Notes under the pieces: generated by a model | The model's database searches: none | Told to the model about the DNA's origin: nothing | Seen by the model: only the letters and a program-made list of their open reading frames with translations | Made by a program: the position numbers and the translations under genes | In this document: positions 54,747-62,399 of the stretch, in pieces | Position numbering within the stretch: position 1 is the stretch's first letter | How the letters are laid out: the number at the start of each line of letters is the position of its first letter | Assembly (NCBI RefSeq): GCF_000348725.1 | Contig: NC_020813.1 | Span: 1,526,248 to 1,590,247, forward strand | Direction: 5' to 3' | DNA length: 64,000 nt | Source: Pseudobdellovibrio exovorus JSS | GTDB lineage: Bacteria > Bdellovibrionota > Bdellovibrionia > Bdellovibrionales > Bdellovibrionaceae

Positions 54747-54833
54747 GGCTCGGTGATGAAATTGGTAGACTTGCTAGACTCAAAATCTTGTGGGCGCAAG
54801 CCCGTGTCGGTTCGAGTCCGACCCGAGCCACCA
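54747..54833 (+). tRNA. tRNA-Leu (anticodon CAA)
   Basis: An 87-base tRNA with encoded CCA. The acceptor stem pairs GGCTCGG with CCGAGCC, the D-arm region reads GATGAAATTGGTAGAC, the anticodon loop is CTCAAAA with CAA at 54781-54783, a long variable arm (TGGGCGCAAGCCC) marks a class II tRNA, and the T-loop is GGTTCGAGTCC. It reads UUG. A T-run follows directly and may act as terminator. Confidence 0.97.
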
Positions 54834-54900: not shown

Positions 54901-56556
54901 TTACTGCTGGCTCACGCCAATTTTCATAATAAAACCTGAAGAGCCGCTGGTGTGAATAATATTGGAATAACCTGCACAGTACACATTTCCCGCAACATCC
55001 ACACTAACACCATGACATCTGTTCTGAGCTTCGGCTTCCGTTTCCCCCCACTGCTTCACCCACTGAACTGCACCTTGAGGGTTTAGCTTTGTCACAAAGG
55101 CATCACCATTACGATTTGCCGAGGAACCTGGAGCCAGTCGACTTGTTGTCATACCAGCACAGTAAACATTATTTGAGGGGTCTACAGCAACTCCATAACA
55201 AATTTCATACTGTGAACTGTCCCCTTGAGTAAACGACTGGCCTAACTGCTTCACCCATTGAATTGTTCCCTGAGAGTTCAACTTCATCACAAAGGCGTCA
55301 CCATTACCACCAGCATAGGCATCTGCTAGGCGTCCATCTGTACGGCCAGCACAGTAGACATTTCCAATGCTGTCAGCAGCTATCCCGTTACAATAATCTG
55401 CTCCGGCACTACTTCCAAAAGTATTTGATTTACTACCCAATTGTCTGACCCACTGAATGACGCCCAAAGGACTCAACTTCATCACAAAGGCATCTACATT
55501 CCCACCAGAAGTTTCCGCTAAGTTGCCATCTGTTACTCCGGCCGTATAGACATTCCCCGCATTATCCACAGTGATTGATGTCGGCACACTACTGGCTTTG
55601 CTGTCACCAAAAGTGTTGGATACACTGCCTAATTGTCGTTTCCACTGAATAGTACCTAAAGCATTGAACTTAACTACGAAAACATCGCCTTTTCCTTTAT
55701 TCCCGCTTTTTTCAACAAAATCGACGGCAGAACCAGTACAGTAGACATTTCCCCCGCTATCCGTAGCCAAACCAGAACAGTTTGTTGCCACCGCATTAAC
55801 GTTGTCATTTGCATACTTCAACCATTGAATAGCACCTTGATGATTGAGCTTCATCACAAAGGCCCCACCGCCGACTAGGCCTCCGCTGTAGCCGCTCACT
55901 CTATTCCCAGATTTATGCTGAGTCGGAGACATCATCCCGCCAACATACACATTGCCAAAATTATCAACGGCGATGGAATTGGCGAAGTCATTGTGATTAA
56001 CGACTGCACGATCACCGGCAGAAGAGGCCGAAGTATAGTCAGTCGTCAGTGCGACCAGCGATCTACTGCCCAACTGTCTGATCCACACAAGCTTGCCGGT
56101 ACTGTCGATCTTCATCGCGAAAACATCGGCCCCACCTGCATTAGGTTCAGCTAAATCACTACTCGTGTGGCCAGCACAGTAACTGTTTCCTTCTTGATCT
56201 ACGGCCGACGCATTACAGACAGCATCCACGTACTGACCGGAGCTATTCACCAAAGTAGTTTTGTATATAAAAGAAGTCTTAGGAATCTGACTCGTTGTTG
56301 TAGTGGTTGTACTGCTATTGGGCGTGGATGGAAACCCGATAATATCTCCGCTTACAGGGTCGATTTCTGGCAATCTTACAATAGGTGCACCGACTAACTG
56401 TTGACCATCCGATGAGGACTGACTGGCACCACTACCACCAATTGAGGACTGATTTTCCATCCCCTCATCTGCCTTATAACTACTACAGTTCTGAAAAGAT
56501 GCTATCAACACAAATACCAAAGCAACAGTTGATACAATTCTCAATTTTTTAGCCAT
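54901..56556 (-). CDS. SBBP-repeat beta-propeller lipoprotein
   Basis: A 551-residue lipoprotein. The signal peptide MAKKLRIVSTVALVFVLIAS leads to FQNC, with the lipidated Cys at 24. A Ser/Thr-rich linker (about 30-100) follows. Then come seven SBBP-type repeats of about 60 residues, each with a 'D..GNVYCAG.T' strand and an 'A F V M K L ..G.IQW..QLG' strand. Seven repeats would close a seven-bladed propeller. Such proteins sit on the cell surface and probably bind ligands; the ligand here is unknown. I chose the ATG with GGGGG four bases upstream; a longer frame adds 42 unlikely residues. Confidence 0.85.
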   Translation of the reverse strand: MAKKLRIVSTVALVFVLIASFQNCSSYKADEGMENQSSIGGSGASQSSSDGQQLVGAPIVRLPEIDPVSGDIIGFPSTPNSSTTTTTTSQIPKTSFIYKTTLVNSSGQYVDAVCNASAVDQEGNSYCAGHTSSDLAEPNAGGADVFAMKIDSTGKLVWIRQLGSRSLVALTTDYTSASSAGDRAVVNHNDFANSIAVDNFGNVYVGGMMSPTQHKSGNRVSGYSGGLVGGGAFVMKLNHQGAIQWLKYANDNVNAVATNCSGLATDSGGNVYCTGSAVDFVEKSGNKGKGDVFVVKFNALGTIQWKRQLGSVSNTFGDSKASSVPTSITVDNAGNVYTAGVTDGNLAETSGGNVDAFVMKLSPLGVIQWVRQLGSKSNTFGSSAGADYCNGIAADSIGNVYCAGRTDGRLADAYAGGNGDAFVMKLNSQGTIQWVKQLGQSFTQGDSSQYEICYGVAVDPSNNVYCAGMTTSRLAPGSSANRNGDAFVTKLNPQGAVQWVKQWGETEAEAQNRCHGVSVDVAGNVYCAGYSNIIHTSGSSGFIMKIGVSQQ

Positions 56557-56729
56557 ACATCCCCCATTGGTTTCGTTAAACCATCGGTCGAAAGTCGAGA
56601 TTCTTTGAGCGCGTAAGCGAATAAAGTGTGGCATAGAATATGCCCACCTAATATGATCTGATATTGTCTCAAATAGATGCATTCGGTCTTTATTTCATTT
56701 TACTCGGCGAAAGGACGTTGACTGACGTT

Positions 56730-58437: not shown

Positions 58438-59346
58438 ATGGTTAAAATCAAATCGATCGGCAATGCCGTTAAAAAGACCTTGTTACCAACCCTATTATCA
58501 TCGCTGCTGATACCGCAAGCGCTGTTGGCGAATGTTTCGACCTCAGCTTCGGTAGCGACGCCTACAGGGCAGTTAACCTTCAGCCTCAAAACGGCAGGCC
58601 CCCCTATTCAAATGATGGCTTTGTCGGACTCTTCGAAATATCTAGCTTTTCAGCGAAGCTTTATGACCAAGTTGAACGATGGCCCTTCCGCTTTGGCTTT
58701 GATTCGTGAATTCGACAACATGGATCACTCGAATTTAGTGACGACTGTGCAAGCCTCTGTTGAACGCGCCGTAGACCCTAACGACAAGTGGACTGACTTC
58801 TATGAATTTATGGAAGCCCCTGAAAATGATTGGTCCTTAGCGATTATCGAATACACCTTAGGGAACGAAAGCGACGATGAACAAATCTATGTTACTGTGA
58901 ATCGTGAATTACGCGATGGCCGCCCGGACTCTGCAGCGGTTTCCCAATGGACTAAACGCATGCGTGAAGCTATGTGGAGACTCCCTCGCTTTGAAGGGAT
59001 CTCGTTCCGCGGTACGCGATTGAAACCTGAACAGATTGAAAAGTATTATCAAGTGGGAAAAGTCGCACAGGATTTGGCTTTTATTTCGACGTCTTTATCC
59101 CCGACAACAGCATTTAAATTTGCTGATCCTGATGTCAATGGAGTCATTGATAATGAAAAGGTCTCTATTGTTTTTGTTGTTTTAGGAAAAACAGGCCGTC
59201 CTGTTTCCAACTTTGCTCACATGCATTCACACGAACAAGAAATTCTTTTTGCTAACGGCACACCGATGACAGTCAAAGCCAAAACACCGGTGTTTCAAGA
59301 CAGTTTGTTAAATCGAACCCAGATTATTCTGCTAGAAGAAAACTAA
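58438..59346 (+). CDS. Exported ADP-ribosyltransferase (R-S-ExE type toxin fold)
   Basis: A 302-residue protein with a Sec signal peptide (about 1-31, ending LLA). The C-terminal 175 residues carry every core feature of the arginine-type mono-ADP-ribosyltransferase exoenzyme fold: 'IIEYTLGNES...VTVNRELRDG' near 136-161, the first-strand Arg191 in ISFRGTRL, the STS motif at 217-219 in 'LAFISTSLSP', and E266-Q267-E268 in HEQEILFANGTPMTV. Known enzymes with ExE modify arginine on host proteins using NAD. The target here is unknown. Its stop codon overlaps the stop of the convergent cysteine-rich gene. It lies 108 bases beyond the HEALY gene and may or may not share its transcript. Confidence 0.88.
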   Translation: MVKIKSIGNAVKKTLLPTLLSSLLIPQALLANVSTSASVATPTGQLTFSLKTAGPPIQMMALSDSSKYLAFQRSFMTKLNDGPSALALIREFDNMDHSNLVTTVQASVERAVDPNDKWTDFYEFMEAPENDWSLAIIEYTLGNESDDEQIYVTVNRELRDGRPDSAAVSQWTKRMREAMWRLPRFEGISFRGTRLKPEQIEKYYQVGKVAQDLAFISTSLSPTTAFKFADPDVNGVIDNEKVSIVFVVLGKTGRPVSNFAHMHSHEQEILFANGTPMTVKAKTPVFQDSLLNRTQIILLEEN

Positions 59347-60957: not shown

Positions 60958-61650
60958 CTAACGAGGAGCCCCTTCATGGCGGAGCTCAGCTCGAAGTCTC
61001 ATATAGATCTCGTGGTAAAAATACGCAGGCGGAGAATCTGCCTTTTGGCGATGATCCGCTAAAAACGTTAAATCCCCTGTGCTTAAAAGCAATCGAACCA
61101 GCTCTGGATTATCGCGAAGTTTAGCGCGGCACGCGTTTAAAATGAGCTCATAATGAACCTCTTGATCGCGGCCATTGTATTCGATTTTACGGCCTTTATA
61201 GGTCACCCATTTTATCCCTAATTTCTTCATATTGGCATTGGCCAAATCACCGGCCTTTTTCGCCTCGAAACCACTGAGTGCACGAACTTCTGCACGTGTG
61301 TAAGGCCACACGAGATCTTTACGCGCTCTTTCATCTGTTGCTGATTCTGGATACTTCAACGACTGCCAAAGACCTTCAACACTGGCGTATTTCAATCCAT
61401 CAAGAGAAAACTCTGATGCTGGCAGATTTGAAAACTGACCAAGCTCATTACGTTTTGAAAGAATGACCTCGCCTTTACTACGGTCTGCGGCTTGCGGCGG
61501 AATTTCCCAACTTGGCAGCTCAGCTTCAGGAACTGCCTGCCACCAAACATCTGGGTAACCATCTTTTATTTGTGAATGTCCACCCGAAACACAGCCAGCA
61601 AGTAGAATCGAAAGAATAAGTAAGATCTGTTTCGGTGAACGGGTTTTCAT
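60958..61650 (-). CDS. NADAR-domain (YbiA-like) lipoprotein
   Basis: A 230-residue lipoprotein: signal peptide with LLAGC and lipidated Cys20. The mature part from about residue 68 matches the NADAR fold: 'GQFSNLPASEF', 'YASVEGLWQSLKYPES' with the conserved Glu92, Gln96 and Lys99 (family pattern S-x-E-x-x-x-Q-x-x-K), and 'LLLSTGDLTFLADHRQ'. NADAR proteins include YbiA, an N-glycosidase on riboflavin intermediates, and enzymes reported to remove ADP-ribose from guanine in nucleic acid. Both act in the cytoplasm, so an exported, lipid-anchored member is unusual. It starts two bases after the serine protease gene, so the pair is coupled. Confidence 0.75.
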   Translation of the reverse strand: MKTRSPKQILLILSILLAGCVSGGHSQIKDGYPDVWWQAVPEAELPSWEIPPQAADRSKGEVILSKRNELGQFSNLPASEFSLDGLKYASVEGLWQSLKYPESATDERARKDLVWPYTRAEVRALSGFEAKKAGDLANANMKKLGIKWVTYKGRKIEYNGRDQEVHYELILNACRAKLRDNPELVRLLLSTGDLTFLADHRQKADSPPAYFYHEIYMRLRAELRHEGAPR

Positions 61651-61652
61651 TT

Positions 61653-62399
61653 TTAGAAACCCAGCTTATCAAGAACACCTGAAAGCGTGGCTTCCGAAAT
61701 GTGCGTCCCATAATTCATAGCAGGCCCAGGAATTAAAACTCCCCCATTGTGAATGCCCACGATTTTTTTAGTGAAGACATCAATCAATACAGCTCCGCTG
61801 CTACTTGGATTAGTATCACACTTATGTTGAATGGCTTTCTTCGGAAGAAATTGGTTGTAAGCAGATTCTGGTTGAACAAAGCAATACTTTGACCACTGAA
61901 GTGGTTGATCATCTGCATGGGAAAAAGCCGTTACACGATTCCCTGCAATAATACGGCGACGACGCTCCAAATCCACTTTTACTGGCGGCACCGGAGAAAC
62001 TTTCATAATAGCAAAGTCACTTCCTAGGCTTTCATTGTCTTGCATCGCTACAATGCTTTCACACTTTGAAACCATGTAAGGTTCTTTGCCTTGGCGAAAT
62101 CCCCAAGAGATCGAAACATCTGAACAGTCTTGATTTTCTTTTAATTGCAGATTGGCCCAGAAACAGTGACCAGCCGTTAAGACATAACCATGACCAATAT
62201 GAGTAGCTGTACAGCCGATATCAATATAACCAAAAGCATCCACTAAAGCGGCAAATGAACGAGGTACATTGGTCGCCTCGGCATCCACCATCACAAGATC
62301 ATTCTTATCGATGATTTTTTCAAATAGATCCGGATTAATTTGAGCAGAAGCCGTTACCGACACTAAGGTGATCAACGCTGTCATTAAGATTGATTTCAT
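61653..62399 (-). CDS. Secreted trypsin-like / V8-like serine protease
   Basis: A 248-residue exported protease with signal peptide (residues 1-19, ending ASA). The catalytic triad is recognisable: His78 in LTAGHC, Asp128 in SDFAIMKV and Ser201 in NPSSSGAVL. The usual GDSGG is changed, with Ser at the two positions before the nucleophile and Ala two after it, which may affect the oxyanion hole. Six cysteines are present, with Cys63 and Cys79 in positions that could form the first disulfide. It resembles glutamyl endopeptidase-type (S1B) enzymes. It is the first gene of a pair with the NADAR lipoprotein. Confidence 0.88.
   Translation of the reverse strand: MKSILMTALITLVSVTASAQINPDLFEKIIDKNDLVMVDAEATNVPRSFAALVDAFGYIDIGCTATHIGHGYVLTAGHCFWANLQLKENQDCSDVSISWGFRQGKEPYMVSKCESIVAMQDNESLGSDFAIMKVSPVPPVKVDLERRRRIIAGNRVTAFSHADDQPLQWSKYCFVQPESAYNQFLPKKAIQHKCDTNPSSSGAVLIDVFTKKIVGIHNGGVLIPGPAMNYGTHISEATLSGVLDKLGF

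Follow-up and report, generated by a model that had tools for sequence, protein, structure and literature searches.

Here, we describe a protein of the epibiotic predator Pseudobdellovibrio exovorus JSS (as characterized in PMC7137782) that combines a predicted NADAR fold with a lipoprotein signal. Its gene lies on the minus strand of a 64,000-nucleotide window (the whole stretch of DNA analyzed; contig NC_020813.1, positions 1,526,248 to 1,590,247), within a genome that consists of a single contig of 2,657,893 bases. Because the NADAR fold sits behind a lipoprotein signal, an extracytoplasmic location is the natural prediction for this 230-residue protein, to judge from its sequence and structural model. 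As to its function, our most likely but tentative reading, at chances that we put slightly short of even, is an N-glycosidase anchored in the envelope, which outside the cytoplasm would strip ADP-ribose from nucleic acid or from guanine nucleotides. The signal peptide and lipobox, the sole start codon, the gp30.3-type core and residues E92, K99 and D199-H200 were read from the sequence and the fold from an AlphaFold2 model, while catalysis, substrate and role are what we infer from them. In the following, the protein and its gp30.3-like relatives are referred to as type A.

The open reading frame (ORF) starts with ATG, and its first 20 residues (MKTRSPKQILLILSILLAGC) comprise a basic n-region, a hydrophobic h-region and a lipobox with its cysteine. 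A PS00013-like lipobox rule places the modified cysteine at position 20 and so bears out the clear lipoprotein signal (LLAGC) claimed in the initial annotation of this stretch. That annotation had also named an upstream start codon that removes the signal peptide as grounds for giving up the idea, yet the sequence upstream of the ATG holds five in-frame sense codons without any ATG, GTG or TTG, followed by TAA, and codon 1 is the sole ATG, GTG or TTG among the first 60 codons. Sec export and lipidation are predicted, as is sorting to the outer membrane, the latter from the valine at position +2; the +2 residue sorting rule is that of E. coli. Since the genome gave no PF08719 match at E <= 1e-3 and this gene was its sole PF08010 match at E <= 0.1, the exported protein appears to be the only NADAR of P. 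exovorus JSS. Close relatives numbered 1212 proteins at E <= 0.01, and a search from a distant member returned 4559 proteins at E <= 1e-5; counts given below for close and distant relatives use the best 120 of each. Two of the 120 close relatives (P0058 and P0068, probably truncated predictions) begin inside the N-terminal cap that precedes the NADAR core, and several distant database entries also begin at the cap, as would be expected were the protein a cytoplasmic NADAR with a misleading N-terminus. However, the P. exovorus gene has no alternative start codon, signal-like N-termini recur across the type A family, and cysteines are paired in the other exported lineage (see below), so that we regard a cytoplasmic location as extremely improbable.

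With regard to the fold, the AlphaFold2 model (predicted local distance difference test score, pLDDT, 93.7) contains the five core helices and two small sheets of the NADAR/YbiA fold, and its good structural matches were three solved NADARs alone. A profile search, as suggested by the initial annotation, returned a split answer: the single sequence scored below the Pfam cut-offs, whereas a profile of the family found E. coli YbiA as its only match in the Protein Data Bank (PDB; E 4e-5). PF08010, the gp30.3 family, was matched by 75 of 80 relatives at E <= 1e-3. When the single sequence was compared with PDB sequences by phmmer, 12 chains were returned and no NADAR among them, the best being haemoglobins from E 0.036, that is, noise; the closest phage family was phrog_652 (E 8.1e-13), whose annotation reads function unknown. 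What holds of the earlier label "YbiA-like NADAR" is therefore the NADAR fold, by model and family profile, but the protein is gp30.3-like and has Asp-His where YbiA has Glu.

A tree of 28 rows grouped type A with three phage proteins, T4 gp30.3 among them (support 100/99), and placed YbiA and other NADARs on the opposite side, several long branches leaving the finer order unsure. To judge by tree and alignment, the P. exovorus protein belongs to the phage gp30.3 branch and not to that of YbiA. Type A and phage gp30.3 proteins have in common, in a joint alignment, a Glu-x6-Lys motif, a hairpin ahead of the long helix and a last-strand histidine, and neither has a YWG loop. The Glu and Lys seven residues apart (E88 and K95 in the NADAR of E. 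coli C7) are present as E92 and K99 in 120/120 close relatives, and position 99 is also lysine in 37 of the 39 genome copies (leucine in the other two). H200 aligns with the histidine of gp30.3, and the adjoining D199 (an Asp in the last strand being a trait of the BC4488 family) is invariant too: E92, D199 and H200 were kept in 120/120 close relatives, 120/120 distant relatives and 39/39 genome copies, amounting to 279 rows, some of them duplicates. Among the C7 NADAR mutants, PMC11543638 lists K95 as essential and D171 as needed, E88Q as inactive and E88A as mild in vitro. Besides, type A proteins have parts of their own. Residues W36, W37, W48 and E49 of the N-terminal cap and D106, R108, W115 and R119 of an insert were invariant in an 80-row alignment, and among the 39 genome copies the insert retained R119 in 39, R108 in 36 and W115 in 33. 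On the sequences compared, the signal peptide, the cap and the insert are new with respect to phage and YbiA proteins. With its lipoprotein signal and its place on a 2.66-Mb contig, rather than being signal-free and phage-borne, the protein is a variant of the gp30.3 set and not a plain member.

The initial annotation had proposed a survey for other lipoprotein-anchored NADARs. Type A was found in 110 of 368 Bdellovibrionota genomes (leaving out one spurious 29-amino acid match; a few of the others were partial copies at contig ends), together with a second exported lineage of the YbiA type, here called type B. The lipobox rule was passed, more often than by chance, by 99/120 close relatives versus 35 of 566 background ORFs, i.e. 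the other ORFs of at least 150 amino acids in the neighbourhoods examined. It was also passed by 20/120 distant type A proteins, 17 of the 39 type A ORFs from genomes, 54 of 120 type B proteins and 10 of 40 PF08719-type loci. Many of the type A and type B proteins that failed the rule resemble ordinary signal peptides by eye at their N-termini. A type A ORF was present in 41/41 neighbourhoods (in two of them on a second look), and inspection by eye showed a hydrophobic, export-like segment at the beginning of all these ORFs, in some of them only if an internal start is taken. Since the lipobox rates differ between close (99/120) and distant (20/120) relatives, lipid anchoring seems to be typical near P. 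exovorus, and an ordinary signal peptide would be commoner elsewhere. A plain hydrophobicity rule for signal peptides was dropped, as it passed 118/120 type A and 111/120 type B proteins but also 357 of 605 ORFs; a stricter setting still passed 301/605, and the lipobox rule plus inspection by eye was used instead. With respect to mobile elements, plasmid records contained no match, the 14 pattern hits for type A in IMG/VR yielded 0 confirmed cases, and 67 phage records had weak matches (best E 4e-3). One type A NADAR (locus L201, G122:C124) carries an in-frame C-terminal extension of ~290 amino acids with no Pfam match over cut-off.

Type B emerged from PF08719 NADARs, which had originally been searched as a cytoplasmic contrast. 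These exceeded the cut-off at 40 loci in 39/368 Bdellovibrionota genomes; by eye, 36 of the 40 have a signal-like N-terminus and four have none. Almost every one of those 36 clearly belongs to the YbiA type, having the Glu and a YWG-like loop. Several type B proteins are annotated "NADAR family protein" in public records. Their C(x4)C motif had both cysteines in 119 of 120 database relatives, neither in one and a single one in none, while among the 40 loci both were present in 26, neither in 11, and the motif was missing from three. Because the pair is kept or lost together, this suggests a disulphide, which would fit an oxidising compartment, although few independent events underlie these counts, given the kinship of the sequences. 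The exported YbiA-type lineage and its paired cysteines would thus lend further support to an extracytoplasmic role of NADARs. A single clade of exported types A and B was rejected (approximately unbiased, AU, test, p 0.006; the grouping was conceived after the alignment had been seen).

The two types were also compared for their distribution. Of 24 genomes in the genus of strain HD100, nine carry type A, 12 type B, none both and three neither, an exclusion with a chance of 1.7e-4 if kinship is ignored. As proof of a shared job, this mutual exclusion had to be discarded: an rpoB tree covering 22 of the 24 genomes gave two independent pairs on supported branches and no significance, and avoidance was likewise not apparent across the 368 genomes, nine of which carry both types (p 0.32). 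The replacement pattern is a lead, not evidence. When the surroundings of 20 type B loci were compared up to a distance of 7 kb, no family of neighbours was common to at least four; one context recurred in three genomes and another in two. Frames of 455 and 585 amino acids (L101/L135 in G358 and L134 in G085) have signal-like N-termini, a C-terminal NADAR and no other Pfam domain over cut-off, the 585-residue protein of G085 being divergent from plain YbiA-type NADARs, and in G015 a second, signal-less NADAR (L139) stands beside the exported type B copy.

If the P. exovorus protein is an ADP-ribosyl-guanine hydrolase, the distal ribose of ADP-ribose would be held by E92 together with D199-H200 and its pyrophosphate by K99, and water would then break the N-glycosidic bond between ribose and base, as in characterized NADARs. 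The chemistry has precedents, since a phage-encoded gp30.3-type NADAR and YbiA hydrolyse guanosine-ADP-ribose on DNA (PMC11125620), and NADARs including that of phage T4 do so on RNA (PMC11833690). The substrate is the least certain step: it might be extracellular ADP-ribosyl-guanine produced by ScARP-type guanine ADP-ribosyltransferases (ARTs) that neighbours secrete or, alternatively, released from broken cells, prey included. Its clearance would reverse damage or return nucleotides to a usable form. It is plausible that suitable substrates can exist outside cells, because ScARP is described in PMC11833690 as a secreted ART that modifies guanosine and guanine mononucleotides in vitro. The initial annotation had listed prey among the possible sources of substrate, and for prey in particular this was not borne out; a prey-specific role is weakened because, among the matches listed, at least two distant type A relatives are named Bryobacteraceae. 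These are acidobacteria that are not known as predators.

Several findings weigh against the proposed function. The single sequence scored only 22.4 bits against PF08010 (cut-off 36), 18.9 bits against the NADAR family PF08719 (cut-off 35.1) and 20.5 bits against TIGR02464 (cut-off 73.7), the curated model for riboflavin-intermediate N-glycosidases, whose score it thus does not reach. The protein lacks the YWG loop that YbiA-type NADARs have and with it, judged by spacing, the tryptophan that contacts the pyrophosphate in the structure of the Phytophthora nicotianae NADAR (W133). The essential lysine is leucine in 110/120 distant type A relatives and lysine in 10/120; as the distant branch has lost it, the family is possibly chemically mixed, and part of it may have changed or lost the reaction. 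An exported NADAR is dispensable, because only 137 of the 368 genomes of the phylum have either type. No conserved neighbour points to ADP-ribose, the neighbours being a protease in one genus and a class-V aminotransferase in another. Finally, phage and YbiA NADARs gave E. coli no protection from DarT1 (PMC11125620), so that activity in vitro need not be physiological. Independently of this weighing, relatives in which leucine replaces the lysine while Glu and Asp-His are kept represent a natural active-site change (loci L087, L088 and L080; proteins P0241-P0360, 110/120).

Two other explanations draw on the same observations. The protein might be an exported N-glycosidase of another small molecule (NAD derivatives, cyclic ADP-ribose variants, or riboflavin-like or other nucleosides) that serves to scavenge nucleotides from lysed cells or prey. 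We consider this rather unlikely, albeit worth keeping in view: leucine in place of the guanine-ADP-ribose lysine in the distant, Bryobacteraceae-type relatives speaks for it, and a hydrolase exported for scavenging would be of use to soil heterotrophs as much as to predators, but the TIGR02464 score argues against riboflavin intermediates, which are cytoplasmic anyway. Moreover, the Pfam search, which among the neighbour families common to at least four of the 41 type A loci covered the protease and the aminotransferase in addition to the genes of the window itself, found no nucleotidase or transporter. Alternatively, the NADAR fold might be without enzymatic function and serve the envelope as a binding or structural module, in favour of which one could invoke the leucine at position 99 in most distant relatives, the missing YWG loop and the strong conservation of the family-specific cap and insert. 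Yet the invariance of E92, D199 and H200 across all rows and the activity reported for the T4 phage NADAR (PMC11833690), likewise without a YWG loop, make this improbable.

We retain removal of ADP-ribose from guanine as the working interpretation, and the features on which it draws are compiled below together with the gene upstream.

Table. Features of the type A NADAR gene and its upstream neighbour (positions in the window; residue numbers of the 230-residue protein).
Feature	Position	Strand	Basis
Predicted exported NADAR-fold protein, 230 aa (type A, gp30.3-like)	60958..61650	-	ORF; AlphaFold2 model and fold matches; family profile
Predicted lipoprotein signal peptide, residues 1-20; lipobox LLAGC, Cys20, +2 residue Val	61591..61650	-	sequence; PS00013-like rule
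N-terminal cap, residues 33-57 (PD.WW...WEIPPQAA..R), absent from YbiA and phage gp30.3	61480..61554	-	80-row alignment
NADAR core, about residues 68-225	60976..61449	-	PF08010/PF08719 matches start at 71/68; fold alignment 30/38-230
E92, counterpart of E88 (E. coli C7 NADAR) and E43 (P. nicotianae NADAR)	61375..61377	-	invariant rows; PMC11543638
K99, corresponding to K95, which is essential in E. coli C7 NADAR	61354..61356	-	alignment; PMC11543638
Family-specific insert, residues 102-119 (E..DER...VWPYTR)	61294..61347	-	80-row alignment; joint alignment
D199-H200, putative catalytic position in the last strand, His being the phage gp30.3 signature	61051..61056	-	alignment; PMC11125620
Gene for a trypsin-like protease (N-terminus signal-like), 2 nt upstream and probably co-transcribed	61653..62399	-	PF13365, 40.6 bits

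A protease homologue with a signal-like N-terminus, which is a further point in favour of export, directly precedes type A in 6/6 loci examined in the genus to which the window belongs, in one case overlapping it by 16 bases; nine genomes of the genus have a full type A match, and the Pfam search covered two of the six loci. Among relatives of the HD100 genus, a class-V aminotransferase follows type A within 10 bases in 8/8 loci examined out of nine (one of them searched with Pfam). Closer inspection of the window revealed an ART-like gene on the plus strand (58438-59346), 1.6 kb away, whose product has a signal-like N-terminus, just exceeds the PF03496 cut-off (24.0 bits, cut-off 23.4) and shows, by eye, the Arg, Ser-Thr-Ser and Glu-x-Glu elements; a second copy, 42% identical, lies at G000:C1:271830-272708. 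Its proximity, likely secretion and PF03496 score would allow the NADAR to be an antidote or partner of this ART-like protein, but the gene is convergent, with two genes in between, the other genomes of the genus contain no ART-like match even where they have type A, and a Glu-x-Glu element in an ART suggests protein rather than guanine as the target, all of which renders the pairing very unlikely. As a fixed partner of type A the ART-like protein was ruled out, for it is matched in only seven of 66 genomes of the family, this one counted. Elsewhere in the window, an SBBP beta-propeller protein (54901-56682, minus strand; PF06739, 176.6 bits; a LipL53-like NCBIfam model stays below its cut-off) is encoded next to tRNA-Leu (54747-54833).

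In the open-licence literature, no paper on exported NADARs was found among the matches listed. The sole "signal peptide" passage in PMC9503650 concerns another domain, ARPP; among comparative genomics papers, the main text of PMC11656739 contains neither "NADAR" nor "ADP-ribos", and PMC7137782 lacks "ADP-ribos". The word "periplasm" is absent from the main texts of the NADAR activity papers PMC11543638, PMC11125620 and PMC11833690, where the parts considered present NADARs either as antitoxins or, in tests on nucleic acid, as stand-alone and phage proteins. The observation of a NADAR domain behind a lipoprotein signal is confirmed and wider than first noted, but neither the label YbiA nor the story about prey is confirmed. 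A widespread exported NADAR in two lineages says that there is a demand for its reaction beyond the cytoplasm, and lysed cells or secreted ARTs would have to supply the ADP-ribosyl-guanine there. A bolder and, for now, doubtful generalization would be that guanine ADP-ribosylation has an extracellular arm, with bacteria, Bdellovibrionota foremost, having put phage-type and YbiA-type erasers into the envelope at least twice to undo it outside the cell. The system offers a testable handle in the form of a small soluble domain, known assays and a genetically studied predator, as B. bacteriovorus HD100 appears to carry type A and its sister strain NC01 the other type.

Compared with known NADAR systems, type A is closest to T4 gp30.3 and its relatives (PF08010), with which it shares the tree group (100/99), the E...K spacing of seven, the last-strand histidine, a Trp hairpin before the long helix and the lack of a YWG loop. 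The three phage gp30.3 proteins compared (151-164 amino acids), on the other hand, are without the signal peptide, the N-terminal cap and the DER...YTR insert of type A. E. coli YbiA (2b3w) differs by its last-strand Glu and its YWGDGG loop, the P. exovorus protein having Asp-His and no loop. The fold resembles that of the DarT1-associated NADAR antitoxins (E. coli C7) and of two solved NADARs, 8bat from G. lovleyi and 8bau, which contains ADP-ribose, from P. nicotianae, and counterparts of E88 and K95 of the C7 protein are present; unlike the DarT-NADAR antitoxins, however, the P. exovorus protein is predicted to be exported, and Pfam found no DarT-kind ART among the nine neighbouring ORFs. 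Bdellovibrionota type B, finally, resembles type A in being a NADAR with a signal peptide or lipobox from the same phylum, yet it stems from another NADAR lineage that keeps the Glu and the YWG loop and often has paired cysteines.
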